Shown here: positions 8,048 through 37,568 of the stretch, piece after piece
Layout of the letters: every line of letters begins with the position of its first letter
How positions within the stretch are numbered: the first letter of the stretch is position 1
Assembly (NCBI RefSeq): GCF_020180945.1
Contig: NZ_JAIPUL010000001.1
Location: forward strand, 992,001-1,056,000
DNA from: Lacticaseibacillus kribbianus
Lineage (GTDB): Bacteria; Bacillota; Bacilli; Lactobacillales; Lactobacillaceae
Length of the DNA: 64,000 bases
Reading direction: 5' to 3'
Program-made: the position numbers and the translations under genes
Notes under the pieces: model-generated
Database searches by the model: none
Told to the model about the DNA's origin: nothing
The model's input: the letters and a program-made list of their open reading frames with translations, nothing else

Positions 8048-8352
8048 GTCGGGCTACGCCAGGCAACGGCCACTCGCCCAGCTAAGTCCGCGCTTCTTCG
8101 CCCTGGTCATCGTCGGGCTGCGACGCGCAACGCGGGTGCGGCTAGCTGCGCCCTAGCGCCGAGGCCCAGCCCGCCTCAACGCCATGGCTAGGCTATCCGA
8201 CCCGCTAAGTCCGCGCTTCTTCGCCCTGGTCACGTCGGGCTCTGCCAGGCAACGGCCGCTCGCCCAGCTAAGACCAGCACTCGGGCCAAAGTGCGGCCCA
8301 AGCACTGGCCTTACGCTGGCCGGTGGCCTAAGTGCGTCTGGCTCCGCCCTGG
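8048..8352 (-). repeat. Dispersed hairpin repeat: one full unit and two core-deleted units
   Basis: This fills most of the 468-bp gap between uvrC and tuf, where no gene is credible. The full unit (about 8232-8352) is an imperfect palindrome centred on GGGCC-AAAGTGC-GGCCC (minus-strand loop GCACTTT). Two shorter copies (ending near 8105 and 8226) share GCTAAGTCCGCGCTTCTTCG and lack the central hairpin, as if lost between CTAAG repeats present in both arms. The same unit recurs near 14.3, 22.5 and 37.0-37.6 kb. Here it begins four bases after the tuf terminator. Confidence 0.85.
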
Positions 8353-8356
8353 ACAC

Positions 8357-8386
8357 AAAAAAACACTCCCAAAAATTGGGAGTGTT
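8357..8386 (-). terminator. Rho-independent terminator of tuf
   Basis: On the minus strand AACACTCCC pairs with GGGAGTGTT around an A/T loop, followed by TTTTTT. Confidence 0.95.
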
Positions 8387-8402
8387 CTCTGGCACTGCGT
8401 TA

Positions 8403-9593
8403 TTAGTCGAGGATTTCGGAAACAACGCCGGCGCCGACGGTACGGCCACCTTCACGAACGGTGAACTTGGTACCCTTTTCGATAGCGACAGGGCTGATCA
8501 TGTCGACTTCGAAGGTTACGTTATCGCCAGGCATAACCATTTCTACGCCTTCTGGCAGCTGGATAACGCCGGTAACGTCCGTCGTGTGGAAGTAGAACTG
8601 AGGACGGTAGTTGGAGAAGAACGGGGTGTGACGGCCGCCTTCTTCCTTGCTCAGGACATAAACTTCACCCTTGAACTTGGAGTGGGTCTGGATGGAACCT
8701 GGCTTTGCCAGGACCTGGCCACGTTCGATCTGGTCGCGGCCAACGCCACGAAGCAGAACACCAACGTTATCGCCGGCTTCGCCCAGGTCGAGGGTCTTGC
8801 GGAACATTTCAAGGCCGGTAACGGTGGACTTGATAACTTCTTCCTTCAGACCAACGATGGAAACTTCGTCGCCGATCTTAACCGTCCCACGGTCGATACG
8901 ACCGGAAGCAACGGTACCACGACCGGTGATGGTGAAGACGTCTTCAACAGGCATCAGGAAAGGCTTGTCGGTGTCACGAACTGGGGTTGGGATGTATTCG
9001 TCAACCGTGTCCATGAGTTCCATAACAACCTTTTCCTGTTCTGGGTCGCCTTCAAGGGCCTTGAGGGCAGAACCGCGGAGAACAGGGATGTCGTCACCAG
9101 GGAAATCGTATTCGGACAGAAGTTCACGAACTTCCATCTCCACGAGGTCGGTGAGTTCTTCGTCGTCAACAAGGTCAGTCTTGTTGAGGAAGACGATCAG
9201 GTAGTCAACACCAACCTGGCGAGCCAAGAGGATGTGTTCGCGGGTCTGTGGCATTGGGCCATCAGTGGCCGCAACAACCAAGATCGCACCATCCATCTGA
9301 GCCGCACCGGTGATCATGTTCTTAACGTAGTCCGCGTGCCCTGGCGCATCGATGTGAGCGTAGTGGCGCTTTTCGGTCTCGTATTCAACGTGGGCGGTGT
9401 TGATGGTGATACCACGTTCCTTTTCTTCAGGGGCAGCATCGATGGATGCGTAGTCTTGCGCCTTGGCAAGGCCCTTTTCGGAAAGTACCTTGGTGATAGC
9501 CGCGGTCAGAGTGGTCTTACCGTGGTCAACGTGCCCGATCGTACCAATGTTTACGTGGGGCTTAGTGCGTTCATAGTGTTCTTTTTCAGCCAT
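8403..9593 (-). CDS. tuf: Elongation factor Tu
   Basis: A 396-residue EF-Tu, the GTPase that delivers aminoacyl-tRNA to the ribosome. G-domain motifs are all present: GHVDHGKTT (P-loop), DAPGHADY, and NKTD in [15 protein letters not shown], followed by the two beta-barrel domains ending in [11 protein letters not shown]. The start at 9593 ([17 protein letters not shown]) is the family start and has AGGAGG upstream; the frame is open for 13 more codons but those fall in the leader. The gene has its own strong promoter and terminator and an untranslated leader of about 125 bases. Its codon use is more restricted than that of its neighbours, as expected for a highly expressed gene. Confidence 0.99.
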
Positions 9594-9725
9594 GAAAAAA
9601 CGAACCTCCTGTATATTTTCGTAAAGACGCAAAGTCTAAACCCTGCAATCCTTTACGTTCTAGTGTACTACATTTAAGCCGAAATACCAAAGGAATATTT
9701 TGGCTGGAAATGAATTCCGAAAATG

Positions 9726-9754
9726 ATTATATCGAGAATCCCGGGCTTTGTAAA
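9726..9754 (-). promoter_or_regulatory. tuf promoter
   Basis: On the minus strand TTTACA (9754-9749), exact 17-bp spacer, TATAAT (9731-9726), in an AT-rich stretch that stands out from the surrounding DNA. Confidence 0.88.
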
Positions 9755-9794
9755 CCTGGAACGTCAACTTTTTTCCCTTTACACCAAAATCCCG

Positions 9795-10709
9795 TCATTT
9801 CGCCATATTCACGAGTTCTGCGGTCTGTGCCTGCAGCCAGTTGAATAACGCGTGCTCCTCTGGCGTGACCGTGGCCCCCGACTTGTTCAGGTAGCTCTGG
9901 GCGAAGTGCTTGGGGTCTTTAATCGCCCGGTCGACGAACGGATAGAGGTAGCCGAGCTCGAAGCGCAGCACCTCGACGGTCGCCCGCATCAGCTCCGGAT
10001 CGTTCAGCCCGATCTCCAGCTGAATGTGGTTCAGCACCTGAAGCAGCGTCTGGTCGTTCAGGACCCCCGGCAGCGTGCTCGGCACGATCTCGCCCGAAGT
10101 CTGGTAGCCGGCCACCTTGACCGGCGTGTCGTCCCCCACCGCCGTCAGCGCGTCCAGCAGGCTGATGCGAATCGCGGGGTGCACGTCCGGGTCGGTCAGG
10201 TTCGGTTGGGCCGCGTCGATCATCACCGCGCGCGGCAGCCGGCCGAGGTCTGCAATCGCCTGCTCCTGCTCATGCGGGGCGAACCCGCCGAGGTGGCGCA
10301 GCTTCTTGGCCAACGCGTCAATCGCCGCGCCGTTGGCGGCCAGGTCCGCCTGCTCCGCGGCTTCAATCCGCGCGGCGATTGGAGCCGGGTCGCCCTGGAC
10401 GTGGTGCAGCACGGCCCAGGCGAAGCGGTAATCCGGCAGCGCCAGCAGGGTGTCGTACAAAAGCGCCGTGTCCTCGGGGGTGGCCAGGAAGTCCTCCATG
10501 AACTGGCTGGCGTACGGCACCGCGGCCTTGGCGTCCTGCATCCCCAAGAGCGCCTGCACCAGCGGGCGCGCGATCTCGAACGCCGGCGCCTGCTTGAAGG
10601 CCTTTTCCAGGTGCGGCACTGCGCTTGCGAAGTTCTGCTTCTTGAGCGCGGCGAGCCCGAGGCTCAGGTGACGATTACTGTTGTTCGGCATTGCGACTAC
10701 TTTTCCCAT
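9795..10709 (-). CDS. Tetratricopeptide-like helical repeat protein
   Basis: About 304 residues, mostly helical and without a signal peptide or membrane segment. The N-terminus reads like a TPR unit (HLSLGLAALKKQNFASAVPHLEKAF), and several later helix pairs look repeat-like; no catalytic motif is apparent. Such proteins usually serve as scaffolds, and its partner is unknown. The second of two adjacent ATGs (10709) is chosen because GGAGG ends five bases before it; ATG 10691 is a further option. It lies between rnjB (62 bases upstream) and tuf, so it probably shares the rnjB transcript. Confidence 0.75.
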   Translation of the reverse strand: MGKVVAMPNNSNRHLSLGLAALKKQNFASAVPHLEKAFKQAPAFEIARPLVQALLGMQDAKAAVPYASQFMEDFLATPEDTALLYDTLLALPDYRFAWAVLHHVQGDPAPIAARIEAAEQADLAANGAAIDALAKKLRHLGGFAPHEQEQAIADLGRLPRAVMIDAAQPNLTDPDVHPAIRISLLDALTAVGDDTPVKVAGYQTSGEIVPSTLPGVLNDQTLLQVLNHIQLEIGLNDPELMRATVEVLRFELGYLYPFVDRAIKDPKHFAQSYLNKSGATVTPEEHALFNWLQAQTAELVNMAK

Positions 10710-10771
10710 CATGACCTCCGTGAGACCCAAAAAACGGCACCCACTGCGGTGTCGTTCGGGCGCGATTGCGA

Positions 10772-12451
10772 TTACTGGCGCTTGGCGCTGTTCTGGTTGA
10801 CTTCCATGATCACCGGCAGGATTACCGGGCGGCGCTTGGTCTGGTCGAACAGGAAGCGGCTCAGGTCGTCGCGCACGCTTTGCTTGAGCGTGCTCCAGTC
10901 GAACTCCTTGTTGTCCAGGCTCTTTTGGACCGTCGCGGCGACCAGGTTCGCCGACTCCGTCATCAGGTCCTTGGCCGTCTTCATGTAGACGAAGCCGCGG
11001 CTTTGGATCTTCGGCTTGGCGACGATGCGCTTCTTCTTGCGGTCGATGGTGACAACGGCGATGAAAATGCCGTCCTCGGCCAGCATCTTGCGGTCGCGCA
11101 GCACGATGTTGCCGATGTCGCCGACGCCGATGCCGTCGATCATGGTGTTGCCCGCGTCCACGTGGCCGGCGTTGTGCATCTTGCCCTTCTCGTAGCTCAG
11201 GATGTCACCGATGTTGGGAATCAGGATGTTCTCTTCCGGAATGCCGGTTTCCTGGGCGATCTCGGCGTGCGCGGCCAGCAGACGGTACTCGCCCTGAACC
11301 GGGATCACGAACTTCGGCCGCAGCAGGTTGATCATCAGCTGCAGGTCGGCCTTGTTGGCGTGCCCGGAGGCGTGCAGGTCGTCGGACACCGCCTTGACCT
11401 CGCCGCCTGCGCGGTAGATCATGTCGCGGGTCTTGGCCGCCATGGTCTCCATCGCGTGGGAGATCGACGTGGTGATGAAGACCAGGTCCCCTTCGTGAAT
11501 GTGGACGAGGCGGTGCTTGTTGGTCGCCATGCGCTGCAGCGACTTCAGCGGCTCGCCCATCCGCCCAGTTTCAAGAATCACCACCTGGCTGTCGTCCAGG
11601 GTCTTGAGCTCCTTGGTGGTGGCGAGAATCTCGGGATTCGGCAGCACGATGTCGTTGAGGCGCATCGCGGTTTTCACCACGCGCTCAACCTCGCGGCCGG
11701 TCAGCACCACGCGGCGGTTGGTGGCCGCGGCGGCGTTCAAGACCTGCTGGATGCGCTCGATGTTGGAGGCGACGCTGGCCACCACGATGCGGCCGGTGTG
11801 GTACTTGAAAGTCTCTTGAATGTAGGTGTAGATCTCGTGCTCACTGGCGTTTTGGTACGGCGATTCCGCGTTGGCGGAGTCGGACAACAGCGCAAGCACC
11901 TTGCGATCGCCGATCTTGGCCAGGCGGGACAGGTCGGACGCGTACGCCGGCGCCGCGCTCTGGTCGAACTTGAAGTCGCCGGTGTACACCACCGCGCCGC
12001 TCGGGGTCTCGATCACGATGCCCAGGGCACCCGGGATACTGTGGGTGGTCGGGAAAAAGGAGACCTTGATCTTGCCGAACTGAACGACGGACTTGGCCGT
12101 GACCACGTTGAAGTCCTTGAACTTCTTGGCCGCAGGCGTCGTCATGCCCAGCTTGGCCAGGGCGATGGTCAGCTCGGAGCCGAAGACCGGCACCGGGTGC
12201 TCCGGCAGGAAGTACGGCAGCGCGCCCACCGCGTCGGCGTGGCCGTGGGACAGGAAAATCCCCTCGATGCGATCCGCGTTCTCCTCAAGATAGGTCAGGT
12301 CCGGAATCACAATGTCGATGCCCAGCAGCTCGTTGTCGGGATACTTCAGCCCGAAATCACATACAAAAATTCGGTCGTCCACTTCGATTGCGTACATGTT
12401 CTTGCCGTTCTCACGTACACCACCGAGGGCGACCACCTTGATCTTACTCAT
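10772..12451 (-). CDS. rnjB: Ribonuclease J2
   Basis: A 559-residue beta-CASP metallo-beta-lactamase RNase of the J family, which acts in 5'-3' mRNA turnover together with RNase J1. It contains the family N-terminus LGGVRENGKNMY, the metal-site region LSHGHADAVG (residues 68-76) and the C-terminal SRGFVYMKTAKDLMTES. The canonical HxHxDH reads H69-G-H-A-D-A74, so the last His is Ala. A weakened active site is known for RNase J2 of lactic acid bacteria and streptococci, where J2 works with the active J1. A second, intact J protein lies at 34.3-36.0 kb, supporting the J2 call. Confidence 0.92.
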   Translation of the reverse strand: MSKIKVVALGGVRENGKNMYAIEVDDRIFVCDFGLKYPDNELLGIDIVIPDLTYLEENADRIEGIFLSHGHADAVGALPYFLPEHPVPVFGSELTIALAKLGMTTPAAKKFKDFNVVTAKSVVQFGKIKVSFFPTTHSIPGALGIVIETPSGAVVYTGDFKFDQSAAPAYASDLSRLAKIGDRKVLALLSDSANAESPYQNASEHEIYTYIQETFKYHTGRIVVASVASNIERIQQVLNAAAATNRRVVLTGREVERVVKTAMRLNDIVLPNPEILATTKELKTLDDSQVVILETGRMGEPLKSLQRMATNKHRLVHIHEGDLVFITTSISHAMETMAAKTRDMIYRAGGEVKAVSDDLHASGHANKADLQLMINLLRPKFVIPVQGEYRLLAAHAEIAQETGIPEENILIPNIGDILSYEKGKMHNAGHVDAGNTMIDGIGVGDIGNIVLRDRKMLAEDGIFIAVVTIDRKKKRIVAKPKIQSRGFVYMKTAKDLMTESANLVAATVQKSLDNKEFDWSTLKQSVRDDLSRFLFDQTKRRPVILPVIMEVNQNSAKRQ

Positions 12452-12483
12452 GGGTTCACCTCTGGTTGATATTTAGGTTTTTC

Positions 12484-12521
12484 GCCAAGTCTTGGCACGA
12501 ATAAATCCTTTTACCAGTGTA
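12484..12521 (-). promoter_or_regulatory. Candidate rnjB extended -10 promoter and dyad in the leader
   Basis: On the minus strand TGGTACACT (extended -10, hexamer 12521-12516) lies about 65 bases before the start; a convincing -35 is not seen. In the leader GCCAAG-T-CTTGGC (12484-12496) is a perfect dyad that widens to TTCG/CGAA on both sides. A regulatory role is only a guess. Confidence 0.4.
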
Positions 12522-12594
12522 CCACACCGCGCGGCGTCTTGCACCCGCCCCGAAGACGCGAACGGGGCGCGCCGCATGGCCCGCCCCGAATCTC

Positions 12595-13281
12595 TCACGC
12601 CTGTGCCAGCTTCCAATCCAGAAGCGGCGTGTAGAAGCGCTGGTACCCTGCCTGGTTCAGGTGGGTGCCGTCGCCATCGTGCGGCACCTTGCCGCTGTTG
12701 TAGGAGAAGCGGCGCGCCATCTCAGGCAGGCAGGTGTTGATCTGCCCCTCGCGGTACACATCGACCACGGGAATCGCCCACTTCGCGCACGCGGCGCGCG
12801 CCGCGGCGTGCAGCTGATCCTGCAGCGCCGGCGCAATCAGCGGCATGTGGTGCGGCGCGACGAAAAACGCCGGTGTCAGCGGGTACTTCGCCCGCAGCGT
12901 CGCGAGCACGCACTCGAAGGCGCCGAGGTACGTGTTGGGATCGAAGGCCGCGGCATCGTAGCCCGCAGTCAGCGTGCCCAGCGCCCGCAGCGCCGGCACG
13001 TAGCTTGCGCCGTCGTTGGTCAGCCCGTCGAACACGATCAGGTCCGGGGCCGCCGGGTCGGCGTCGCGCAGCTGCCTGGCCACGTCCGGCACATCGTTGT
13101 CGGAGGGCCAGGTGTGGTCGCTCGGCCGCGTCGGCACCACCGTCGCACCGTTTTGCGCGTACTTCACGTAGCGCATGCCGTGGCGGGCGGCCAGGTCGTC
13201 GAGCATGCCGTAGTCCAGCTCGTGGCCCCGCACCAGCGAGTCGCCGAAGCCGTAGAGTGTTGCGCCATCAAGCTTCACCAT
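12595..13281 (-). CDS. SGNH/GDSL-family hydrolase
   Basis: A 228-residue cytoplasmic protein (no signal peptide) of the SGNH esterase family. Block I is YGFGDSLVRG with the nucleophile Ser, block II/III residues appear as FDGLTNDGASY, and block V is DGTHLNQAG with the Asp and His. Substrates of such proteins range from acyl esters to carbohydrate acetyl groups and cannot be told here. The start at 13281 has GGAGG seven bases upstream and lies inside the last codons of the endonuclease-family gene (14-base overlap), so the two are translationally coupled. Confidence 0.82.
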   Translation of the reverse strand: MVKLDGATLYGFGDSLVRGHELDYGMLDDLAARHGMRYVKYAQNGATVVPTRPSDHTWPSDNDVPDVARQLRDADPAAPDLIVFDGLTNDGASYVPALRALGTLTAGYDAAAFDPNTYLGAFECVLATLRAKYPLTPAFFVAPHHMPLIAPALQDQLHAAARAACAKWAIPVVDVYREGQINTCLPEMARRFSYNSGKVPHDGDGTHLNQAGYQRFYTPLLDWKLAQA

Positions 13282-14077
13282 GCTGCGCCTCCAAGGTCAC
13301 GTCGATGACGACCGGGAAGTGGTCGGAGGCGTAGTGCCCGTCCGGCGTCTGCGCGACGTCGATCTGGTAGCGGTCAACGCTCACGTTCGGTGTGACGAAC
13401 CAGTAATCGATGCGCTTGGTCGTCAGGTCCGGCCGCGCGCGGAACTGCCCGTTGTCCTGGAAGGTGCCTGGGTACGGCATCTCGCGCGTTTTGGCCACCA
13501 GCTGCGCGTCCTGCAGGGCTGAGACGGCCTGGTGGTAGGCCTGGTCCTCGGGTTCCGCGTTGAAGTCACCGGCCAAAACCAGCGCCTCGCCGGCCGCAAG
13601 CAGCGGCGCGAAGTAGCGCAGGATCTGCGCCATGCCCTGCTCGCGCGCCGGCTGGGACTGGTCGTCCAGGTGCGTCACCACCGCCGTGAACACGCGGTTA
13701 GTCGCGCGCTCGCGCAGCCGCGCCCACTGGAAAATGCGGGTGCTGCCGGCCCCGGGAAACTTCGTCGGCTGATCCGGCGTCTGCGCCAGCCACTGGTGAC
13801 CGCTTGCAATCAGCGCGAACTTGGCGGGCAGATAGAACAGCCCGTTGAACTCCCCGGCGGCGATGCCGTCGTCGCGCGCCACCCCGACGAAGCGGTACGC
13901 CGGCAGCGCCTGCTTCAGCGCGGCCAAGGGCTCCGCCAGCACCTCCTGCAGCGCCAAAAGGTCCGGCGCCTGGGCCTGAATGTTGGCAATCACGTGCGGC
14001 CGGCGCTGGGCCCAGCGCCACTGGCCCCCTTCGTCCTCCGGGTTGTCGTAGCGAATGTTGTACGTCATTAATTTCAT
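13268..14077 (-). CDS. Endonuclease/exonuclease/phosphatase family protein
   Basis: A 269-residue protein with the EEP fold: MTYNIRYD at the N-terminus, LLALQEV (metal-binding Glu), VVTHLDD, VLAGDFNAEPED (catalytic Asp/Asn) and a C-terminal YASDHFPVVIDV (general-base His). The family includes phosphodiesterases acting on DNA, phosphoinositides and sugar phosphates; there is no export signal, so it acts in the cytoplasm. The start at 14077 is preceded by AGAGGTC; ATG 14095 is in frame but less well spaced. It overlaps and probably is co-transcribed with the GDSL gene. Confidence 0.85.
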   Translation of the reverse strand: MKLMTYNIRYDNPEDEGGQWRWAQRRPHVIANIQAQAPDLLALQEVLAEPLAALKQALPAYRFVGVARDDGIAAGEFNGLFYLPAKFALIASGHQWLAQTPDQPTKFPGAGSTRIFQWARLRERATNRVFTAVVTHLDDQSQPAREQGMAQILRYFAPLLAAGEALVLAGDFNAEPEDQAYHQAVSALQDAQLVAKTREMPYPGTFQDNGQFRARPDLTTKRIDYWFVTPNVSVDRYQIDVAQTPDGHYASDHFPVVIDVTLEAQHGEA

Positions 14078-14208
14078 GGTTTGACCTCTTCTCATGACTC
14101 ACCGCAATGCGGTCACCGTCTAGGATACGCTTTCACAAGCGGCGTGACCACCGGCGCCGGGCAACTTTTTTGGCCGATGTGGCCTCAGTGCGAGACTGCG
14201 GCCGGCAC

Positions 14209-14370
14209 GCTGTGCGGTTGCCTAAGTGCGCCTGGCTTCGCTCTGGCCTCGTCGAGCTACGCAAGGCAACGACAACTCGCGCTGCTAAGGCCAGCCCTCG
14301 GGGCATAGTGCGCCCCAAGCGCTGGCCTTACGCTGTGCGGTTGCCTAAGTGCGCCTGGCTTCGCTCTGGG
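14209..14370 (-). repeat. Dispersed hairpin repeat: one half unit and one full unit
   Basis: This occupies the 342-bp gap between rpsO and the endonuclease-family gene. The full unit (about 14250-14369) has arms AAGGCCAGCCCT and AGCGCTGGCCTT around GGGGC-ATAGTGC-GCCCC: 16 of 18 facing positions pair, and the core has changed from GGGCC/GGCCC to GGGGC/GCCCC on both sides at once. A right-half copy (14209-14246) precedes it. The block starts next to the rpsO terminator. The rest of the gap (14096-14208) shows nothing recognisable. Confidence 0.85.
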
Positions 14371-14371: not shown

Positions 14372-14408
14372 ACAAAAAAGGCCGCCACAGCGAACGCTGC
14401 AGCGGCGG
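14372..14408 (-). terminator. Rho-independent terminator of rpsO
   Basis: On the minus strand a GC-rich stem (CCGCCGCTGCAGCG with CGCTGTGGCGG, loop near TT) is followed by CCTTTTTTG, 11 bases after the rpsO stop. Confidence 0.9.
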
Positions 14409-22396: not shown

Positions 22397-22419
22397 TGGA
22401 AAAACTCCTTTCAGAGGGT

Positions 22420-22525
22420 GAAGAAGCGCGGGCTTAGGCAATCGGCCAGCGTAAGGCTGGGCAGTGGGCCGCACTTTGGCCCGAGTGCCGGCGCGTAGCT
22501 AGACGCACCCGCGTTGCGCGTTGGC
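22420..22525 (+). repeat. Dispersed hairpin repeat, single degenerate unit
   Basis: One unit lies between the pyc stop and ylbG. The core GGGCC-GCACTTT-GGCCC is exact and is flanked by GGCA and TGCC. The CTTAGGCAATCGGCCAGCGTAAG left arm and GCGCGTAGCTAGACG right arm are recognisable but have lost much of their pairing. It ends three bases after the pyc stop and is inverted relative to pyc transcription, unlike the copies at tuf and rpsO. Confidence 0.8.
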
Positions 22526-22528
22526 CCC

Positions 22529-25500
22529 CTACCCCTGGCTTGCGGGCTTGAGCGTCGCCAGCAGCGTCTGGCTTTGCACTAGGTCGCCTTCCGCGACGTA
22601 AAGGTGGGTCACGGTGCCGGCGAACGGCGCGTGCACCGTAGTTTCCATCTTCATCGCCTCGGTGGTGAACAGCGCGTCGCCCTCTCGAACCGCCTGGCCC
22701 ACCGACACGGCGACGGTCAGGATGCGACCGCCCATCGGTGCCGGAATCTGGTTTTTGTCGGTCGGCTCGGCCAGCTGGGCGCCGGTCGTGGTGTGCTTGG
22801 CCGCCGCATCCTTGACCTGCACCTCGCGCTTTTGGCCGTTGACGGTGAAGTACAGCGTGCGCAGGCCGGCCGCGTCGGGCTCGCCGATCGCGTCCAGCTG
22901 CATGATGTAGGTGGTGCCCGGCGCCACGGCAACGCTGACGCGCTCGCCGATGCGCATGCCCTGGAAGTAGGTCGGGCTGTCCAGGCGGGTGACCGGGCCG
23001 TACAGGGCCTGGTTCTTCAGGTAGCCGGCGAACACCTCCGGGTACAGGATTGCGGAGAGCACCTGCTCCTCCGTCGGGTGCGCGAGGCCGGAAGTCTTCA
23101 GCTGTTCCCGGACCGCAGTGAAATCAACCGGCTCGGCCAGGCTGCCCGGCCGCACGGTCAGGGGCGTCTGGCCCTTGATAATCTTGGCCTGCAACAGCTT
23201 AGGGAAGCCGCCGACCGGCTGGCCGAGGTCGCCCTTGAAGAAGGCGACGACGGACTCCGGAAAGTCCAGCTGCTCGCCGTGATCCAGGACGTCCGCGGTG
23301 GTCAGCTCGTTTTGCAACAGGTAGAGGGCCATGTCGCCGACCACCTTGGACGACGGTGTAACCTTGACGATGTCGCCGAACAGGGCGTTAACGTCCTGGT
23401 ACATGCGCTTGACCGCCTCGAAGTCGGTCAGGCCCATCCCCTTGGCCTGCTGCTGCAGGTTGGAGTACTGGCCACCTGGCATCTGCACGGCGTAGATGTC
23501 GGTCAGCGGGCCGGTCACGTTGTTGGCAAAATCGGCGTAGTACGGCCGAATCGCCTGGAAGTACTGGTTCAGGTGCTCGGCGTGGTCGATGTCGAGCTGT
23601 GGCTGGCGCGGCGAGCCCTCCAGCGCGTAGTACAGGCTTTCCATCGACGGCTGGCTTGTGGTGCCGGACATCGCCGACTGGGCGACATCGACCACGTCGA
23701 CGCCGGCGCGCACCGCGGCCACGTAAGTCGCGATGCCGTTACCGGTGGTGTCGTGGGTGTGCAGGTGCAGCGGCACGTCGACGGCGTCCTTGAGCGCAGC
23801 CACCAGGGCGTACGCGGCCTGGGGTTTGAGCAGCCCGGCCATGTCCTTGATCGCCAGGATGTCGGCGCCGGCAGCGACCAACTCGCGCGCCAGGTTGACG
23901 TAGTACGGCAGGTTGTACTTGGGGTGCGCGTCGCCCAGGATGTCGCCGGTGTAGCACATCGTCCCCTCGGCCAGCTTGCCGGTCGCCTTGACCGCGTCGA
24001 TCGAGTGGGTCAGCTGCGGCACCCAGTTGAGGGAGTCGAAAATGCGGAAGACGTCGATGCCGTTTTTCGCCGCCGTGGCGATGAACTGGCGAATCACGTT
24101 GTCCGGGTAGTTCTTGTAGCCGACGGCGTTGCTGCCGCGAAACAGCATCTGCAGCAGCGTGTTGGGCATCGCCTGCCTGAGCGCCTGCAGCCGGCGCCAC
24201 GGGTCCTCGTTGAGGAAGCGGTAGGCGACATCGAAGGTCGCGCCGCCCCACATCTCCATGGAAAACAGGTCGGGCAGCGCGTTGTGCATGTCCGGCGCCA
24301 CGCGCAGCATGTCGCGCGTGCGCATCCGGGTGGCAAACAGGCTCTGGTGCGCGTCGCGGAAGGTGGTGTCGGTCAAGAGCACGCGGTCTTGGTCCTTCAT
24401 CCAGGCCGTGACCGCCCGCGGACCACCGTTGGCCAGCAGCTCGACCAGGTTGGTCTTGGGCGCCGTCTGCGGGAACTGCAGGCGGTACTGCCAGTCCGGG
24501 TAGTACTTTTGGGCGTGGCGCTCGAGCCCCGGGAAGCCGTTGACCGTGATCTCGCCGACGTAGGCCATCAGCTGATCGGTCTTGGCGACCTGCGGCTTGA
24601 GCCTGAACAAGGACGGCGTCTGGTCGATGAACGTGGTCTCGGCCAGCCCCTCCCGGAAGGTCGGCGCGTTGAGCACGTTGACCAGGAACGGCAGGTTGGT
24701 TTTGACCCCGCTGATGCGGAACTCGCCGAGCGCCCGCAGCATCTTGCGCACCGCGCCGGCGAAGGTCGCCGAGTGCACGGAGGTTTTCACCAGAAGCGAG
24801 TCGTAGTACGGGCTGACCACGGCGCCGGCGTACGCGTTGCCGACGTCCAGCCGCACCCCGTAGCCGCCCGGGCTGCGGTAGGTCTTGATGGTGCCGGTGT
24901 CGGGCATGAAGCCGTTGGCCGGGTCCTCGGTGGTGATGCGGCACTGAATCGCCGCGCCGCGCCAGGTCAAATCGGCCTGCTGCGGCAGGCCCAGGTCCTT
25001 GAACAGGTCGGCACCGGCCGCCACGCGCAGCTGGCTTTGGACGATGTCGACGTCCGTGATCAGCTCGGTGATGGTGTGCTCGACCTGCACGCGCGGGTTG
25101 ACCTCGATGAAGTAGAAGTTGTCCCCCTCGACCAGAAACTCGACCGTGCCGGCGTTCTCGTAGCCGACGCTTGTCATCAGGGCCACCGCCGCGTCGCAGA
25201 TGCGTTGGCGCAGGGCCAAGTCGAGACCGACGGCCGGTGCAATTTCAATCACCTTTTGGTTGCGGCGCTGCACGGAGCAGTCGCGCTCGAACAGGTGCAG
25301 CAGGTGGCCGTGCCAGTCGCCGAGCACCTGCACCTCGATGTGCTTGGCGCTTGGAATGTATTTTTCCACGTACATGCGGCCGTCGCCGAAGCTGGCCTTG
25401 GCCTCGTTCACCGCGTTCTGGTAGACGGCGCGCAGCTCGGCCTCGGAGTGCACGATACGCATCCCCTTGCCGCCGCCGCCGCTGGCCGCCTTGAGCATGA

Positions 25501-31243: not shown

Positions 31244-31419
31244 GTTGTCCCCCTACCGACTCCCACGAGTCTCTAATGATACCCGAAGGATACCGCTTTT
31301 TGACCCGATTGGCTACAATTATCGCCCGCCGGCCGCAGCATTGCACAAAACGGCCGGCGCATTCCCCCGAGGGAAACGCGCCGACCGCCTTTGCGCAATC
31401 GTGTCATCTGAGTCAAAAA

Positions 31420-32223
31420 TTAGGCCAAGCGCCACGAGACCGGGTCCTGGTTGTAGCGGAACGCCGCCTCTTTGGCGTCGTGCCCGCTGGTCCCAACCAG
31501 GGTCGCCAGGGCGTTCAACGCCCCGAGAATCGTGTGAAGCCGTGCGTCGATGGCGCGGGCCACCGGGCGGCATGCCAGGGCTGCCTGACCCTGCCCGAAC
31601 TGGTGCAGCGCCAGGCGCACCTGCGCGGCCAGGCCGAGTGCGGCCTGAGCGAGCCAGCCCACCAGCGTGAAGGCCGCACCGGCGGTCGCATCGCCTGCGA
31701 CCTGGCGCACCACCAGCCGGTCGGCGCCGACGGCCACGACTTGAACCTGACCGGCCGCGGTGAAGCGGCTGCCGGCGGCAATCGTGCCGGCGGTCATGCC
31801 GGTTGCCAGGGCAATCAGGCGCAGCCACGCACTCGGCTTGGCCGCGACCGTCCCGGCCACGTCTGCGGGAAGCACCGTGCCGGCCTGAACCTGCACGATG
31901 TCACCGGCGACCAGCTCCGCCGCGTCGACGGCGCGGGCGAGCCCGTCGCGCACCACCAGCACCTGGCGTGGCGCGTCAAGCCGGGCGAGCCAGCGGCGAA
32001 AGGCCGCGTGGCCCAGCAGGGTTGCCGCCGTGATCAGGGCAACCAGGGCAAACCCAACCATGCCGGAGGTGGTCCAGTCGCCGAGCACGACGCCAAGACC
32101 CAGCCCGAGCAGGATGATCGGGCGCAGGGCGAACGCCGGGCGTACCACGGCGCTCGTCCGCTTGAAAACTTGTTGTTGCTTGACCTCGAAGCGGGTCAAG
32201 CCGCTTTGTACTTGCATCAACAT
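31420..32223 (-). CDS. Degenerate P-type-ATPase-like membrane protein (actuator part only)
   Basis: A 267-residue protein. Two hydrophobic helices (about 31-49 and 53-71) are followed by a stretch very like the actuator domain of P-type ATPases: VRDG, VAGDIVQVQAGTVLPAD (106-121), then ATGMTAGTIAAGSRFTAAGQV (140-160). The dephosphorylation motif TGES is replaced by TGMT, and the whole phosphorylation domain (DKTGT) and ATP-binding domain are missing. It cannot be a working pump; it may assist or regulate an Mg2+ transporter, or be the remnant of one. Start 32223 has GAGGAG seven bases upstream, held in a hairpin, and the mRNA leader is an M-box. Confidence 0.65.
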   Translation of the reverse strand: MLMQVQSGLTRFEVKQQQVFKRTSAVVRPAFALRPIILLGLGLGVVLGDWTTSGMVGFALVALITAATLLGHAAFRRWLARLDAPRQVLVVRDGLARAVDAAELVAGDIVQVQAGTVLPADVAGTVAAKPSAWLRLIALATGMTAGTIAAGSRFTAAGQVQVVAVGADRLVVRQVAGDATAGAAFTLVGWLAQAALGLAAQVRLALHQFGQGQAALACRPVARAIDARLHTILGALNALATLVGTSGHDAKEAAFRYNQDPVSWRLA

Positions 32224-32227
32224 CGTC

Positions 32228-32253
32228 GATCTCCTCTCTACCCCGAGGAGGTC
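32228..32253 (-). promoter_or_regulatory. Hairpin covering the ribosome binding site of the P-type-ATPase-like gene
   Basis: On the minus strand GACCTCCTC faces GAGGAGATC across the loop GGGGTAGA (8 of 9 pairs). The right arm contains the entire Shine-Dalgarno sequence GAGGAG, so translation should need this stem to open. It begins 11 bases after the leader ORF stop. Confidence 0.75.
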
Positions 32254-32263
32254 CGATGCCGCT

Positions 32264-32356
32264 TTACCTCATTATTAAGTTAAGTGGCGGCACAAGGACA
32301 AATCTTCGGGGATCCGCATTGTCGGGGTTACCGCCATCAATCGCTGTTTGTTTCAT
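32264..32356 (-). CDS. Putative 30-residue leader peptide between M-box and structural gene
   Basis: An ATG at 32356 with AGGTGG about ten bases upstream opens a 30-codon frame that stops with TAA at 32264. The peptide begins MKQTAIDGGNPDNADPRRF and continues with VLVPPLNLIMR. It holds NP, DP and PP steps and acidic residues. Salmonella mgtA, also under Mg2+ control, has a short Pro-rich leader peptide (MgtL), whose translation reports on proline and Mg2+ levels; analogy to that case is inference. Its ribosomes would end next to the stem that masks the downstream ribosome site. Confidence 0.55.
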   Translation of the reverse strand: MKQTAIDGGNPDNADPRRFVLVPPLNLIMR

Positions 32357-32391
32357 GTGCTCACCACCTTTCATTCACGTTCCGTTGCACG

Positions 32392-32421
32392 AAAAAGCGC
32401 GCACCAATTGGGCATGCGCGC
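32392..32421 (-). terminator. Rho-independent terminator of the M-box riboswitch
   Basis: On the minus strand GCGCGC pairs with GCGCGC around a loop containing CCAATTGG, followed by TTTTT. It lies directly after the aptamer and is the expected expression platform. Confidence 0.85.
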
Positions 32422-32427
32422 GATCTG

Positions 32428-32590
32428 CATCCCAATCGTTTAGTTTTAGCACTATACGCCTAGAACCCTCGTTCAGCTACGTTAGCGCAAGCCTTTGTAG
32501 ACAAGCGCAGTTGACTCATTGGCATCTCTGGATGTTTCTGAGCAGCAGCATTGTTCGTATAGGAGCCTCACCTAACGGAAAGCACCGGTT
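32428..32590 (-). ncRNA. M-box (ykoK-type) magnesium riboswitch
   Basis: On the minus strand the diagnostic M-box blocks occur in order: CCGTTAGGTGAGGCTCCTAT, GCTGCTGCTCAGAAA, AGAGATGCCAATGAGTCAAC, AACGTAGCTGAA and finally AGTGCTAAAACTAAACGATT. These match the aptamer that binds Mg2+ and switches off Mg2+ transporter genes such as mgtE and mgtA. A consensus promoter lies just upstream and a terminator just downstream, so the gene that follows is expressed when Mg2+ is low. Confidence 0.95.
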
Positions 32591-32605
32591 TTCAACTACT
32601 TACTT

Positions 32606-32634
32606 ATCATACGTGATTGCCCGGCGGGTGTCAA
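32606..32634 (-). promoter_or_regulatory. Promoter of the M-box transcript
   Basis: On the minus strand TTGACA (32634-32629), exact 17-bp spacer, TATGAT (32611-32606). It is divergent from def. Confidence 0.92.
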
Positions 32635-32715
32635 GGCCGCGCCTTGCAGATTTTCTTTTTTGTTGCGCGCCGGTGTGGTAAGGTAATGAGGAATAATGAA
32701 TTGGAGGTCTGGACC

Positions 32716-33270
32716 GTGTATCTCATGAAAGACATCACCCGCGACGGGGCCCCGGTGCTGCGCGCCACCGCGCAGCCGGTCGCGTTCCCGCTTTCGGCTG
32801 AAGACAAGAAGCTGGCCGACGACATGATGGAGTACCTGGTGATCAGCCAGGACGAGAAGGAAAACGAAAAGTACAAGCTGCGCCCGGGCGTCGGCCTCGC
32901 CGCGCCGCAGGTCGGCGTTGGCAAGGCGATGGCCGCGGTGCTCGTGCCCGGCCCCGACGACGAGATTCTGTTCAAGGAAGTGCTGATCAACCCCGTCATC
33001 ATCAGCCACAGCGTCCAGGAGGCAGCCCTGTCCGAGGGTGAGGGCTGCCTGAGCGTGGACAAGGACGTGCCGGGCTACGTGGTGCGCCACGACCGCATCA
33101 CAATCCGCTACCAAAACGAGGCCGGTGAGACCAAGAAGGTGCGGCTCAAGAACTACCCTGCCATCGTCTGCCAGCACGAGATTGACCACCTCAACGGCAT
33201 CCTCTTCTACGACCACATCGACAAGAAGCAGCCCTTCCACATGAAGCCCGAGGGCATCCTGATCGACTAA
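32716..33270 (+). CDS. def: Peptide deformylase
   Basis: A 184-residue metal-dependent deformylase that removes the N-formyl group from new proteins. The three family motifs are intact: [16 protein letters not shown] and [12 protein letters not shown] (HExxH metal site). The insert after the first helix ([16 protein letters not shown]) is typical of Gram-positive type 2 enzymes. The start is GTG 32716, eight bases after GGAGG and giving the family N-terminus [14 protein letters not shown] 32725 is less well spaced. It is a single-gene unit with a very stable terminator. Confidence 0.97.
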
Positions 33271-33289
33271 GCTTCACACAACTAAGCAC

Positions 33290-33355
33290 AAGACAACGGC
33301 GCCTGCCGCGAGCTTCCCTGATCCGGGGAGCTGCGGCAGGCGCCGTTGTCTTGTC
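33290..33355. terminator. Bidirectional terminator between def and the convergent gene
   Basis: A perfect 20-bp stem (AAGACAACGGCGCCTGCCGC with its complement) continues into a second GAGCT/AGCTC-type pairing around GATCC. It lies between two convergent genes and can serve both. Confidence 0.85.
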
Positions 33356-33381
33356 TCAGGAATCCAGTGCGGTGCAGGCCC

Positions 33382-33852
33382 TCACACCCGCCGCACATCC
33401 TCAACGTACTCGCGCGTCGCCGGGTTGACCAGGCGCGCCACATCGAAGTGGATCAGCCCGTCGCGCAGCCAAAAATCGGTGACCACGAACTCGGCGGCGG
33501 CTTCCGGGGTGACGGTGACCTGCCCCGCCGTCGCCATTTCCGCGGCTGCATCCACCAGCGCCTGCCCCAGCGTCGCCTTGGTGACCGCCTCAGCGTCCGA
33601 ATCCGGCGCCAGAGTCACGTACTCGAAGGCCGCGATGCCGTGGCCCCAGACGTCGGCGACCGGCGCGGCCGGCACCAGCGGCGACTCGGGCCAGCCAAGC
33701 GCCGTCAGGGCCGCGGTCACAACCTGATCGCACACCCGCTGGTTGCGCGCCAGAAACAGCCGCAGCGCACGGCGCCTGCGCAGCGCGCGCACGACCAAGA
33801 CGGCGAAAATCAGCGCCACCACCGCAATCACTGCCATCAACCACCAGATCAT
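33382..33852 (-). CDS. Membrane-anchored protein of unknown function
   Basis: A 156-residue protein that I do not recognise. An N-terminal membrane helix (MIWWLMAVIAVVALIFAVLVV) is followed by an Arg-rich stop-transfer run (RALRRRRALR) and a soluble, probably cytoplasmic domain rich in Ala and Val. No catalytic motif is visible. Start 33852 has AAGGAGGTG upstream, which is better than the upstream in-frame starts. It is a single gene, divergent from rpoY and convergent with def. Confidence 0.7.
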   Translation of the reverse strand: MIWWLMAVIAVVALIFAVLVVRALRRRRALRLFLARNQRVCDQVVTAALTALGWPESPLVPAAPVADVWGHGIAAFEYVTLAPDSDAEAVTKATLGQALVDAAAEMATAGQVTVTPEAAAEFVVTDFWLRDGLIHFDVARLVNPATREYVEDVRRV

Positions 33853-33954
33853 GTCAGCACCTCCTTGTGACTCCAGTATACCGCATCGACCAACCTGGCC
33901 GCATCTGGACACGCCTTGCCGGCGGGCGTTAGGGCGTGGCGTCACGCCGCCATC

Positions 33955-34037
33955 TATGATAAGATAGTCGTAACTGTTGAAGAAACTTCAACATTTGACC
34001 GGTAAATCGCTAAATCACCCCGCTCACGGGGAGTTTT
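33955..34037 (+). promoter_or_regulatory. rpoY-rnjA promoter region and leader with terminator-like hairpin
   Basis: A TATGAT -10 candidate (33955-33960, no clear -35) is followed by the hairpin GTTGAAG-AAA-CTTCAAC (33976-33992) and then by CCCCG-CTCA-CGGGG with a TTTTTT tract (about 34017-34036), 26 bases before rpoY. The pair could form an attenuator; the second hairpin may also end a short upstream transcript. Confidence 0.5.
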
Positions 34038-34062
34038 TTGGCGTACACGAAAGGAGTCCACT

Positions 34063-34275
34063 ATGATCTACAAAGTATTGTACCAACCAGACAAAATCCG
34101 CAACCCGAAGCGGGAAACCACGGAGACGCTTTACCTCCAGGCGGATTCGGCAGCGGCAGCACGCGCACTCGTTGAAGATAACACCCCTTACAACATCGAG
34201 CTTGTGCAGGAACTCTCAGGCAAGTTCTTGGCCTTCGAGCAGCAAGAACCGGGCTTTGAGCTGACGGAGTTTTAA
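34063..34275 (+). CDS. rpoY: RNA polymerase epsilon subunit
   Basis: A 70-residue RpoY (formerly DUF1447), a small RNA polymerase accessory subunit of Firmicutes. The sequence [18 protein letters not shown] and the ending [19 protein letters not shown] are typical. AAAGGAG precedes ATG 34063. It sits five bases upstream of rnjA, the conserved pairing in Bacilli, so both are made from one transcript. Confidence 0.95.
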
Positions 34276-34280
34276 CCTAG

Positions 34281-35963
34281 ATGAAACTTAACGTCAAGAA
34301 CAACGAAACCGCCGTCTTCGCGATCGGCGGCTTGGGCGAAATCGGCAAGAACATGTACGGGGTTCAGTTCCAAGACGAGATCATCGTCATCGACGCCGGG
34401 ATTAAGTTCCCGGAGGATGATCTGCTCGGGATTGATTACGTGATCTCCGATTACTCCTACCTAGTCCAGAACCAAGACAAGATTCAGGCCCTGGTGATCA
34501 CCCACGGCCACGAGGACCACATCGGCGGCATCCCCTACTTCCTCAAGCAGGTGCCGAACGTTCCGGTGTACGCCCCGCCGTTGGCCGCGGCCCTGATCCG
34601 CGGCAAGCTCGAGGAGCACGGGCTGCTTCGCACCACCGAGCTGCACGAGCTGAAGGAAGACACGGTGCTCAAGTTCCGCAAGGTCACCGTCGACTTCTTC
34701 CGCACCACCCACAGCATTCCGGACACCCTGGGCGTCGCCGTCCACACCCCGCAAGGCGTAATCGTCGAAACCGGGGACTACAAGTTCGACCTGACCCCGG
34801 TTGGCGACCAGCCGGCGCCGAACCTGCAGAAAATGGCCCGGCTCGGTGAGGAAGGCGTCCTTCTTTTGATGTCCGACTCGACCAACGCCGAGATCCCGAA
34901 CTTCACCAAGTCCGAGCGCTTCGTCGGCCACTCGATTCGCCACCTGTTCGACGGCATTGAGGGCCGCATCATCTTCGCGACCTTCGCCTCCAACATCTCG
35001 CGCATCGCCCAGGCCGCCCAGGCGGCGATGGACCACGGCCGCAAGATTGCGGTGTTCGGCCGCTCGATGGAAACCGCGATGGTCAACGGCCGCGAGCTCG
35101 GCTACCTGGACATTCCAGACGACGTGCTGATCGACAGCCACGAGCTCAACAAGATTCCGGCCGGGGAGGTCATGATTCTCTGCACGGGCTCGCAAGGTGA
35201 GCCGATGGCTGCGCTGTCGCGCATCGCCAACGGCACCCACCGCCAGATTTCCATTCAGCCCGGCGACACCGTGATTTTCTCCTCCAACCCGATCCCGGGC
35301 AACACCGTGAGCGTGAACCACGTGATCAACGAGCTCGAGGAGGCCGGCGCCACGGTCATCCACGGCAAGGTCAACAACATCCACACCTCCGGCCACGGCG
35401 GCCAGGAGGAGCAGAAGCTGATGCTGCGCCTGATGAAGCCGAAGTTCTTCATGCCGATCCACGGCGAGTACCGGATGCTGAAGATCCACACGGAGCTGGC
35501 GCAGGAGTGCCACATCCCCGAGGACCACTGCTTCATCATGGACAACGGCGACGTGCTGGCCCTGAGCAAGGACTCCGTGCGCCGCGCGGGGCACTTCCCC
35601 GCCGCCGACGTCTACATCGATGGCTCGGGCATCGGCGACATCGGCAACGCGGTGATCCGCGACCGGCGCCTTTTGTCCGAGGAAGGCCTGGTGGTCGTGG
35701 TCGCCACGATCAACATGCAAAAGCAGGCCGTACTGGCCGGTCCGGACCTGCTGTCGCGCGGCTTCATCTACATGCGCGAGTCCGGCGAGCTGATCAACTC
35801 CGCCCAGCGCCGCGTGTACCGCACCATCAAGACCACCTTCAAGCAAAACGAGAAGGTGACCGAGGGCATGCTCAAGGACGCGATCATCGCCAACCTGCAG
35901 GAGTTCCTGTTCGACAAGACGGAGCGCCACCCTGTTATTTTACCGATGCTGATCACGCTGTGA
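34281..35963 (+). CDS. rnjA: Ribonuclease J1
   Basis: A 560-residue RNase J1, the active 5'-3' exo- and endoribonuclease of the J family. The metal site [11 protein letters not shown] (H75-G-H-E-D-H80) is complete, unlike that of the J2 paralogue at 10.8-12.4 kb. Further features are the beta-CASP region [28 protein letters not shown] and the C-terminal [17 protein letters not shown] lies about ten bases before ATG 34281, inside the rpoY 3' end. J1 and J2 work as a complex in mRNA decay and rRNA maturation. Confidence 0.97.
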
Positions 35964-35968
35964 GCTTG

Positions 35969-36001
35969 AACCGAGACGCCTGCTGGCGCCTCGGTTTTTT
36001 G
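35969..36001 (+). terminator. Rho-independent terminator of rpoY-rnjA
   Basis: AACCGAG-A-CGCC pairs with GGCG-C-CTCGGTT around TGCT, followed by TTTT, six bases after the stop. Confidence 0.92.
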
Positions 36002-36020
36002 TTGCCGCGGCGCGATTCGG

Positions 36021-36049
36021 TTGTTTTATCCAAAATCAGCCGGTATAAT
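36021..36049 (+). promoter_or_regulatory. Promoter of the diacylglycerol-kinase-family gene
   Basis: TTGTTT (36021-36026), exact 17-bp spacer, TATAAT (36044-36049), 33 bases before the start codon. Confidence 0.85.
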
Positions 36050-36082
36050 CAAACTTAGTGAAATTGAGGAAGAGGGATCCGC

Positions 36083-37030
36083 ATGGCCGACGTCTTTTAC
36101 TATATTATTTTCAACCCCGCAGCGGGGTCTGGCACCTCCGTGGCGACCTTCAAGGCCGTGCGCAAGGTGCTCGACGCCCGCAAGCTCCCATACGAGATCC
36201 GCGTCAGCCGCTACTCCGGGCACGCCGTCCAGCTGGGTAAGCAGATCGGCAGCTTCAACAAGCATGAGCACGCGGTGGTGATGGTCATCGGCGGCGACGG
36301 CACCCTGAACCAGACCATCAGTGGCCTGCGCCAGACGGACCAGCCGCTGCTCCCCGTCGCCTACATCCCCGCGGGCTCCGGCAACGACTTCGCCCGCGGC
36401 ATCGGTATGGCACAGGAGCCGATGAAGGCGCTGGACCAGATTCTCGCCGCAACGGAGCCCCTCGTGCTCGACATCGGCCAGTACAGTGAGGCGAGCCGCC
36501 ACGAAAGCGGCTACTTCGTCAACAACATCGGCGTCGGCTTCGACGCCGCCGCCGTCGCCGCGGCCAACCGCAGCAACTACAAGCGCATCCTGAACCGGCT
36601 CCACCTCGGCAGCCTCGCCTACATGTTCGGCGTGGTCAACGTCTTCTTCTCGCGCAAGCCGTTCCCCGTCACCGTGCACCACGACGGCAAGTTCGAGCTG
36701 ATTCCGCGCGCGTTCCTGTGCACCACCACCAACCACCCGTACTTCGGCGGCGGCGTGCGCATCCTGCCCACCGCCACCCCGACGGACGGCGAAATCGACC
36801 TGATCGTGGTCGAGAACCTGAACATCCCCTACTTCCTGTTCCTCTTGCTGGAGCTGATCCGCGGCAAGCACATGAAGTACAAGGCCGTGCACCACTTCAA
36901 GGCCAAGCACCTGCGCGTCGAGACCAGCTCGCTTGAGTTCGGCCAGATGGACGGCGAGGAGATGGGCACCCGCCCCTACGATCTGGACTTCAACGTGGTC
37001 AAGCAGCCGTTTTGGATCAAGCTGGACTAA
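36083..37030 (+). CDS. Diacylglycerol/lipid kinase family protein (DagK/YegS)
   Basis: A 315-residue soluble lipid kinase. The nucleotide-binding motifs FNPAAGSGTS, VIGGDGTLNQ and PAGSGNDFARG mark the DAGK catalytic domain, and EMGTRPYDLDF near the end belongs to the second domain. In Gram-positives DgkB-like members recycle diacylglycerol left from lipoteichoic acid synthesis; this role is likely but not shown. GAGG and AGAGGG precede ATG 36083. It is a single-gene unit, and the hairpin-repeat array starts six bases after its stop, with no ordinary terminator between. Confidence 0.9.
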   Translation: MADVFYYIIFNPAAGSGTSVATFKAVRKVLDARKLPYEIRVSRYSGHAVQLGKQIGSFNKHEHAVVMVIGGDGTLNQTISGLRQTDQPLLPVAYIPAGSGNDFARGIGMAQEPMKALDQILAATEPLVLDIGQYSEASRHESGYFVNNIGVGFDAAAVAAANRSNYKRILNRLHLGSLAYMFGVVNVFFSRKPFPVTVHHDGKFELIPRAFLCTTTNHPYFGGGVRILPTATPTDGEIDLIVVENLNIPYFLFLLLELIRGKHMKYKAVHHFKAKHLRVETSSLEFGQMDGEEMGTRPYDLDFNVVKQPFWIKLD

Positions 37031-37036
37031 AAATCA

Positions 37037-37568
37037 GGGCGAAGCGGCGCGCTCTTAGCAGGACGGCTAGCGAAGAAGAGGGATTTGGGCCGCACTTTGG
37101 CCCGAGTCCCTCTTCGCAGCTGGCCGCTCCTGTGTTGCGCCGCACAGCTCGACGATACAAGGGCGAAGCGGCGCGCTCTTAGGCCACCGGCTAGCGTAAG
37201 AACGGGCATTGGGCCGCACCTTGGCCCAGTGCCCGTTCTTAGCTGGACGAGTGGCCGTTGCGCCGCGTAGCCCGACGAAAACCAGAGCAAAGCGGCACGC
37301 ACTTAGCAGGACGGGTAGCGAAGAAGAGGGACTTGGACCGCACTTTGGCCCGAGTCCCTCTTCGCAGCTGGCCGCTCCTGCGTTGCGCCGCACAGCCCGA
37401 CGATACCAGGGCGAAGCGGCGCGTACTTAGGCCAACGGCTAGCGTAAGAACGGGCATTGGGCCGCACTTTGGCCCGGTGCCCGTTCTTAGCTGGATGAGT
37501 GGCCGTTGCGCCGCGTAGCCCGACGAAAACCAGGGCGCAGCGGCACGCACTGAGGCCACCGGCCAGCG
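37037..37568 (+). repeat. Tandem array of 124-bp hairpin units (four full, one truncated)
   Basis: Units begin at 37037, 37161, 37285, 37409 and 37533, a period of exactly 124 bp. Two types alternate (A-B-A-B-truncated). Type B holds TAAGAACGGGCA and TGCCCGTTCTTA arms around GGGCC-GCACYTT-GGCCC (19 paired positions counting wobble); type A holds GAAGAGGGA and TCCCTCTTC arms around the same core. Outer arms GCGGCGC and GCGCCGC pair as well, so each unit is a long imperfect palindrome. The fifth unit stops at AGCG, 23 bases before the IS element. This explains the 561-bp gap; no gene is credible in it. Confidence 0.95.

Follow-up and report, generated by a model that had tools for sequence, protein, structure and literature searches.

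A 64,000-nt stretch of the Lacticaseibacillus kribbianus genome (contig NZ_JAIPUL010000001.1, positions 992,001 to 1,056,000; hereafter the window) carries several copies of a 119-nt repeat unit that folds as one long interrupted hairpin. An initial annotation had noticed a palindrome of about 120 bp with the centre GGGCC-GCACTTT-GGCCC at four loci of the window. We found the unit, with this centre, at all four of them, and observed that it belongs to a far larger family, extrapolated to ~415 copies per genome. The fold, covariation, strand polarity, docking, array anatomy and the differences in presence and copy number between relatives were all observed directly. Based on these, we propose that the family consists of non-autonomous mobile palindromic repeats, whose mobile form would be a folded single strand of fixed polarity; we put this reading a little above an even chance.

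The 5′ end of the unit reads CCAGRGCGGAG (or AGAGGGCGGAG) and its 3′ end GNAGCYCGACGA (or GCCCGTTTA). Outer helices P1–P3, with a GGA/GNA internal loop and a CACTTA/GTT loop between them, are followed by an inner helix, P4, capped by the GGGCC-GCACTTT-GGCCC centre. Upon alignment of the copies, the unpaired loops were observed to be conserved in sequence and not closed up. The five copies that we folded gave z-scores of −6.28 to −8.50, and none of 200 shuffles was equally stable. We built a covariance model, R1, from 16 aligned copies (119 positions, 38 pairs) and obtained at least 150 matches in a whole-genome search, with E-values down to 1.3e-32. The fold scores together with these matches indicate that the family is not a product of chance. 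Both R1 and a second model, R2 (see below), were calibrated briefly, and their E-values are rough. In some AGAGGG-type units (L096:747, L098:7189, L101:14092 and L107:14607; by eye), the unit lies within another, larger palindrome (GGTTGGAGCCCGA ... TCGGGCGGAAACC, and variants of these), which looks like an extension or nesting of the stem.

For counting copies, we took 40 systematically sampled stretches together with the window, amounting to 864 kb of the 2,794-kb genome (31%). This sample gave 182 R1 matches at E ≤ 0.01, and the best 150 of these correspond to at least 128 non-overlapping copies; the overlapping matches that were dropped are mostly the same copy on the opposite strand. These 128 copies form 71 arrays, namely 35 single units, 22 doubles, 9 triples, 4 arrays of four units and 1 of six. 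Neighbouring units are arranged head to tail in 57 of 57 pairs and recur about every 124 nt (spacing of 121–125 nt in 49 pairs). In 34 of the 71 arrays a partial copy of the unit 5′ end trails the last unit after a linker of 1–6 nt. These trailing pieces are 12–60 nt long, 27 of them measuring 22–42 nt. The same test succeeded at 2 of 71 random places, where the last unit alone was used, while for the arrays the better of the first and last units was taken. Two lone 5′ pieces of ~40 nt lie thousands of bases from any copy (L089:3921-3960 on the minus strand and L112:1733-1774 on the plus strand), and are possibly leftovers of lost units or unused sites.

Within arrays, the units share their ends much more than their interiors. 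In 88 adjacent pairs from two species, the variable columns of the first 9 and last 9 nt had an excess identity of 0.51–0.93 over unlinked copies, whereas the mean excess was 0.22 in P2, 0.08 in P3, 0.15 in P4 and 0.15 in the core. The linkers are also constant inside many arrays (for example, gatga occurs five times in L099). The part shared within an array is about the last 9–11 nt at each unit end plus the linker. An earlier idea that the outer arms are locus-specific as far in as P2 was given up, adjacent units having a P2 identity of only 0.48 against 0.37 for unlinked ones. Two interior types alternate in some arrays, including one in the window, and in this genome next-but-one units are more alike (identity 0.806, n = 18) than adjacent units (0.768, n = 53). 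The possibility that the newest unit stands first was set aside as weak: compared with the last unit, the first has better pairing in 27 arrays, poorer pairing in 13 and the same in 15 (p 0.04 by sign test and 0.08 by Wilcoxon test).

The initial annotation had stated that arm changes are matched on the opposite arm and that one copy has swapped its core to GGGGC/GCCCC. The swapped core is indeed present in the rpsO copy, and 21 of the 38 pairs show at least one double change among the 16 aligned copies. We ranked 6,670 column pairs by mutual information with average-product correction, using sequence-only MAFFT alignments and ignoring kinship. In this genome (123 copies), 16 of the top 20 column pairs and 21 of the top 40 were structure pairs; in the nearest species, L. 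parakribbianus (64 copies), the corresponding numbers were 11 and 16. Among 63 distinct rows from other genomes of the genus, 93.9% of the cells pair and 37 of the 38 pairs have double changes. Double-change cells numbered 742, whereas shuffling gave 215.6 and sliding no more than 141, in an alignment that was fitted to the model, is thus biased towards pairing, and includes two reverse-strand echoes. Selection on the folded form is well supported by the covariation among copies and across species and by the strand-specific fold.

This specificity is seen from the folding energies. For 183 of 187 copies, RNA folding energy is lower on the copy's own strand than on the opposite one (mean −78.5 versus −65.9 kcal/mol). 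The own strand also folds better in 186 of 187 copies with DNA parameters, in 172 of 187 with RNA parameters minus G–U pairs, and in all 17 antisense copies between tandem genes. In the inner helices the ratio of G–U to A–C is 159:26 in this genome and 110:8 in L. parakribbianus, two pairs with a G–U consensus being left out, whereas in the outer helices it is 43:36 and 19:19, respectively (43:42 and 19:19 on summing the alignments made separately for the covariation analysis). These ratios place the strand signal in the inner stem and the loops; the outer mismatches look neutral. As one strand folds best, a symmetrical DNA cruciform alone is insufficient; the initial suggestion of a selected RNA or cruciform holds for the fold but not for a cruciform by itself.

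Genes were predicted with a dicodon-scoring script, and the gene ends given here are predictions. The units are intergenic, 2 of the 71 arrays overlapping a predicted gene by >30 nt. In 27 of 71 arrays, no more than 10 nt separate the 5′ end from an upstream stop codon (1.8% of 20,000 random intergenic points), and in 26 a T-tract is found within 15 nt of that end (2.5% of such points). Docking of either kind, behind a stop codon or behind a terminator-like T-tract, was seen in 52 of the 71 arrays (4.3% of such points). Typical junctions are TTTTTTGTC or TAA followed by CCAGGG. Of the arrays no more than 60 nt away from a gene 3′ end, 41 turn their 5′ end to the gene and 3 turn their 3′ end; for arrays up to 30 nt away from a gene start, these numbers are 7 and 2. 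No constant TA or other target duplication was seen by eye at the junctions of the 71 arrays or in the linkers of 55 multi-unit arrays from two species. In six arrays (L076:10102, L097:14817, L101:3603, L107:5395, L109:10987 and L114:9099) the predicted gene upstream takes the last two letters of its TAG stop from the AG with which the element begins. The initial claim that all copies lie at a gene 3′ end applies to tuf and rpsO, where they stand behind a terminator-like repeat, and to the lipid kinase gene, but not to the pyc copy, which is antisense to both of its neighbours.

The rpsO site was followed through 30 genomes of the genus. In eight of them (this genome, G000, and G005, G006, G012, G013, G020, G021 and G026), R1 matches lie 47–75 nt behind rpsO and in sense to it. 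A unit behind rpsO was also seen by eye in G028, where R1 reported none, and the G005 and G028 copies show matched arm changes; G001 has a remnant there, by eye. The other 22 genomes, with L. parakribbianus (G010) among them, have no R1 match behind rpsO. The site is thus reused repeatedly but not always; a preferred target and a local function would both be in line with this. In G007, at the place where its relatives have units, rpsO is followed by a long hairpin (L118:1767-1990) that R1 left unreported; its arms are quite different in sequence, and it shares GCGTTGCG.

Occupancy differs between the sister species. We compared this genome with a 400-kb sample of L. parakribbianus YH-lacS6 using simple gap-length rules. 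Both flanks could be matched for 17 of the 71 arrays: 6 sites were occupied, 9 were shorter as if empty and 2 were unclear. At shared sites the copy number often differs (for example, 1 versus 6), and in one operon L. parakribbianus has 14 nt from stop to start where this genome has a unit. Plasmids gave similar differences. One G027 unit matched 14 of 72,556 plasmid records (5 Lacticaseibacillus, 9 Pediococcus), 13 of them over at least 80% of the unit length; none of the matches lies under a listed gene, the gene table being incomplete. Three units of G341 matched no plasmid. Four L. plantarum plasmids lack about 109 nt at a phosphotransferase system (PTS) locus that is 98.1% identical. At a second locus, one L. 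paracasei plasmid has two units and a mini-unit, while about 247 nt are missing in six other plasmids, the two that were read having the mini-unit alone. Plasmid loci about 98% identical differ by about one or two units.

We infer from these observations that the units move through a single-strand intermediate with the help of a recombinase, and that their interiors get replaced. The mobile form would probably be a folded single strand of fixed polarity, either single-stranded DNA or RNA copied back. A recombinase of the host, or one supplied in trans, may recognise the conserved unpaired loops and the long interrupted stem. On insertion, the 5′ end would come to lie immediately past the boundary of a gene, in most cases marked by a stop codon or a terminator T-tract, where harm might be kept to a minimum. 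Recombination between the repeated ends could lengthen or shorten the arrays, which consist of n whole units and a partial 5′ piece, and whole hairpins may be exchanged when interiors are replaced.

Several observations weigh against this proposal. We saw neither transposition nor any precise empty site bearing a target duplication, and no phage record matched the one unit tried. In the plasmid that was read, about 11 nt from the 3′ terminus of the element are still present at the PTS site that lacks the unit, and this remnant makes a deletion probable. Many sites are shared or reused, as seen from the rpsO matches and from the sister species, where 9 of the 11 flank-matched arrays (of 30 in L. 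parakribbianus) are occupied in this genome, at 7 places, and 2 are unclear. The lack of G–U preference in the outer helices is not predicted by an RNA or single-strand intermediate and also argues partly against a simple RNA reading. The Y1 transposase model PF01797 had no match in G000, G010 and G001, although a transposase outside the model is possible, and the reverse transcriptase model PF00078, searched with a retroelement or group IIC intron derivative in mind, had none in the same three genomes; across the genus, they match in 13 and 11 of the 30 genomes, respectively. RAYT/Y1 and reverse-transcriptase mobilisers were rejected on this account. A search for half-units yielded 37 free halves, 32 being 5′ halves, of which 25 lie within 9 nt of a copy. 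As no 5′/3′ half pair around a gene was seen by eye in 31% of the genome, an autonomous copy with an internal gene was also discarded.

A host function could account for part of the data. The units would then be structured hairpins of the 3′ untranslated region that protect, end or insulate the upstream transcript and are selected locus by locus. Such a role agrees with the orientation of arrays near gene 3′ ends, which mostly lie in sense (41 to 3), the 27 arrays at stop codons, the G–U tolerance of the sense-strand inner helix, the rpsO matches in eight genomes and the matched arm changes in the rpsO copies of G005 (R1) and G028 (by eye), but it has to contend with the 26 arrays behind T-tracts, which are probably mostly outside the transcript, with sister-species sites that often look empty (9 of the 17 testable), with antisense copies that retain the element's own strand preference (17/17), and with the 22 genomes, the nearest species included, in which rpsO has no such match. 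We consider a host RNA element rather unlikely. Among the roles suggested initially, the mRNA 3′-end stabiliser is thus weakened by the T-tracts, the empty sister sites and the antisense polarity, though helped by rpsO, and a non-autonomous mobile unit gives a better fit than a locally selected mRNA element, making it the best reading.

Conserved loops that have not been closed up, and the strong strand specificity of the inner helix and of the whole-strand energy, also speak against neutral palindromes whose perfection is maintained at the DNA level (quasi-palindrome template switching, or hairpin cleavage with gene conversion), in which the arms would covary without structural selection. We regard this as improbable, even though the symmetric outer-helix mismatches (43:36 and 19:19) agree with it, and array interiors that differ almost like unlinked copies between termini that agree are what centre-initiated conversion would give. 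Ordinary tandem repeats of the variable-number type, spread by duplication alone, are a very improbable source. They would explain the ABAB array of the window and the greater likeness of next-but-one units, but not the dispersed docking or the fixed orientation. Near-identical inner stems were found in only 16 of 88 adjacent pairs, for which reason arrays as simple recent duplications were rejected. Finally, a tentative reading to which we give a low probability is that of a repeat-cassette array: the locus-constant end sequence would be an exchange site for inserting or swapping whole structured interiors (about 80–100 nt), with a host recombinase acting on folded single strands and docking mostly behind gene boundaries; strand-polar, folded mobile repeats of this sort would then form one class across the bacterial family, in lactic acid bacteria.

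The nearest known kinds of element appear to be ERIC and EFAR. EFAR of Enterococcus faecalis, reportedly described by Venditti et al. in 2007, are said to be 42–650 bp long, mostly ~170 bp, and modular, with two stem-loops and stem-loop targets. This size series resembles what we observed here (a unit plus a 40-nt piece is ~164 nt, lone pieces are ~40 nt, and arrays reach six units). As to targets, 26 arrays lie behind a T-tract and 27 at a stop codon; the comparison was by description. Integron attC sites are recognised as a folded strand, keep structure over sequence and sit after a stop codon. Our units resemble them in the structure kept and in the placement, but have no cassette genes; no search for an integron integrase was made. 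As in miniature inverted-repeat transposable elements, pairing ends are present; a target-site duplication was not seen.

ERIC, or IRU, is a 127-bp palindrome of enterobacteria (PMC2759123, PMC2267715). It resembles our unit in length, in the single long interrupted stem-loop and in its intergenic location, and differs in its TA target duplication, none being seen here, in the head-to-tail arrays with a partial end piece, and in its bacteria; this, too, was compared by description. Efa-1 of E. faecalis is an intergenic pair of adjacent stem-loops with a 163-nt model and 65 copies (PMC2267715), far fewer than our family. The RAYT protein TnpA-REP recognises the folded strand in a strand-specific way that needs its irregularities (PMC8266576, PMC2817692). 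Our family has hundreds of copies like REP/BIME, but differs from REP/BIME-RAYT systems (REPIN) in having no Y1 match in this genome and units about three times longer, and from BIME in that adjacent units never alternate (same orientation in 57/57 pairs, head to tail). Pneumococcal BOX elements are modular and of variable length, with boxA, repeated boxB and boxC, and pneumococcal SPRITE is enriched near coding-sequence 3′ ends (PMC3049150); BOX differs in unit build, as compared by description.

The family extends well beyond this species. R1 matched in 27 of the 30 genus genomes at E ≤ 0.001. Using R2 (67 rows, one a reverse-strand echo), with the best 18 candidates per genome scored, we detected the family in at least 75 of 201 Lactobacillaceae genomes and 18 of 40 genera at E ≤ 1e-5, the own genus accounting for 9 of the 75. 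An order-wide draw gave R2 matches in 9 of 198 genomes, 3 of which are outside Lactobacillaceae and come from two other families. At eight loci of six other Lactobacillaceae genera, with 35–55% local G+C, the loops and ends are unchanged, whereas the arms differ entirely. In genus g75, G341 has 20 matches and G318 has 10 at E ≤ 0.001, with arrays and a trailing piece of ~41 nt seen by eye; matches occur in 3 of 18 genomes of its family, one of them weak. The S15 protein of G341 has its nearest PDB entry in 7nhk/7p7q-u, which we take to be E. faecalis ribosomes.

No Rfam 15 family reached its gathering score at the window units or at 16 loci from other genomes; at a lax threshold there were 10 matches (E 0.0022–0.82), all far below gathering. 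The exact 17-mer core was abandoned as a marker, matching in only 6 of 60 relatives with one mismatch allowed. In a contig collection, which may not include the genome of the window, it occurs in 33 stretches, 3 of them Lacticaseibacillus; the other 30 were taken for chance. A literature search, with most subscription journals outside its reach, found no description of the family in Lacticaseibacillus. New here are the docking, the strand polarity, the trailing 5′ pieces, the shared termini and linkers with mostly unshared interiors, and the sister-species and plasmid differences. A large structured-repeat family, absent from Rfam, is thereby added to food and probiotic bacteria, and it is a very clear case of structure conserved while sequence varies freely. 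The docking rule, the polarity and the arrays of n plus a partial unit constrain, in a testable way, how small palindromic repeats with no known transposase spread, a question long open for ERIC-like elements, and the arrays that differ between near-identical plasmids could serve as strain markers.

Table 1. Repeat units and associated features in the window
Feature	Position	Strand	R1 score or other evidence
tuf array, decayed remnant (bits of 5′ and 3′ parts of a further unit)	8048..8106	-	27.1 bits
tuf array, second unit	8112..8229	-	91.5 bits
tuf array, unit behind terminator-like repeat, sense to tuf	8234..8352	-	123.7 bits
Terminator-like inverted repeat between tuf and array	8357..8386		by eye
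rpsO partial 5′ piece, 40 nt	14207..14246	-	100% identical to first 40 nt of rpsO unit
rpsO unit, core GGGGC/GCCCC, just behind terminator-like repeat	14251..14369	-	117.5 bits
Terminator-like inverted repeat between rpsO and unit	14374..14408		by eye
Unit antisense to pyc and YlbG-like gene, degenerate 3′ end	22413..22532	+	75.1 bits
Four-unit array, unit 1	37034..37153	+	118.6 bits
Four-unit array, unit 2, other interior type	37158..37276	+	132.8 bits
Four-unit array, unit 3, interior type of unit 1	37282..37401	+	112.1 bits
Four-unit array, unit 4, interior type of unit 2	37406..37524	+	130.2 bits
Partial 5′ piece of ~42 nt closing the four-unit array	37530..37571	+	35/42 identical to unit 4

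The four-unit array (Table 1) begins 4 nt past the stop of a YegS/diacylglycerol kinase-like gene (36083-37030). For the pyc-side unit, the predicted YlbG-like gene start is 17 nt away from the 5′ end, and the 3′ end shares a few nt with the pyc stop. A weak R1 match of 34 bits at 54162-54280 (+), 10 nt past a stop, is either a very diverged unit or another long hairpin, and is included in the counts of 128 copies and 71 arrays. An IS3-family transposase gene (37650-38513, minus strand) lies ~80 nt past the four-unit array, the trailing piece of which stops short of it. The sole Rfam match at gathering score in the window is an M-box (Mg2+) riboswitch at 32424-32586 on the minus strand (121 bits).

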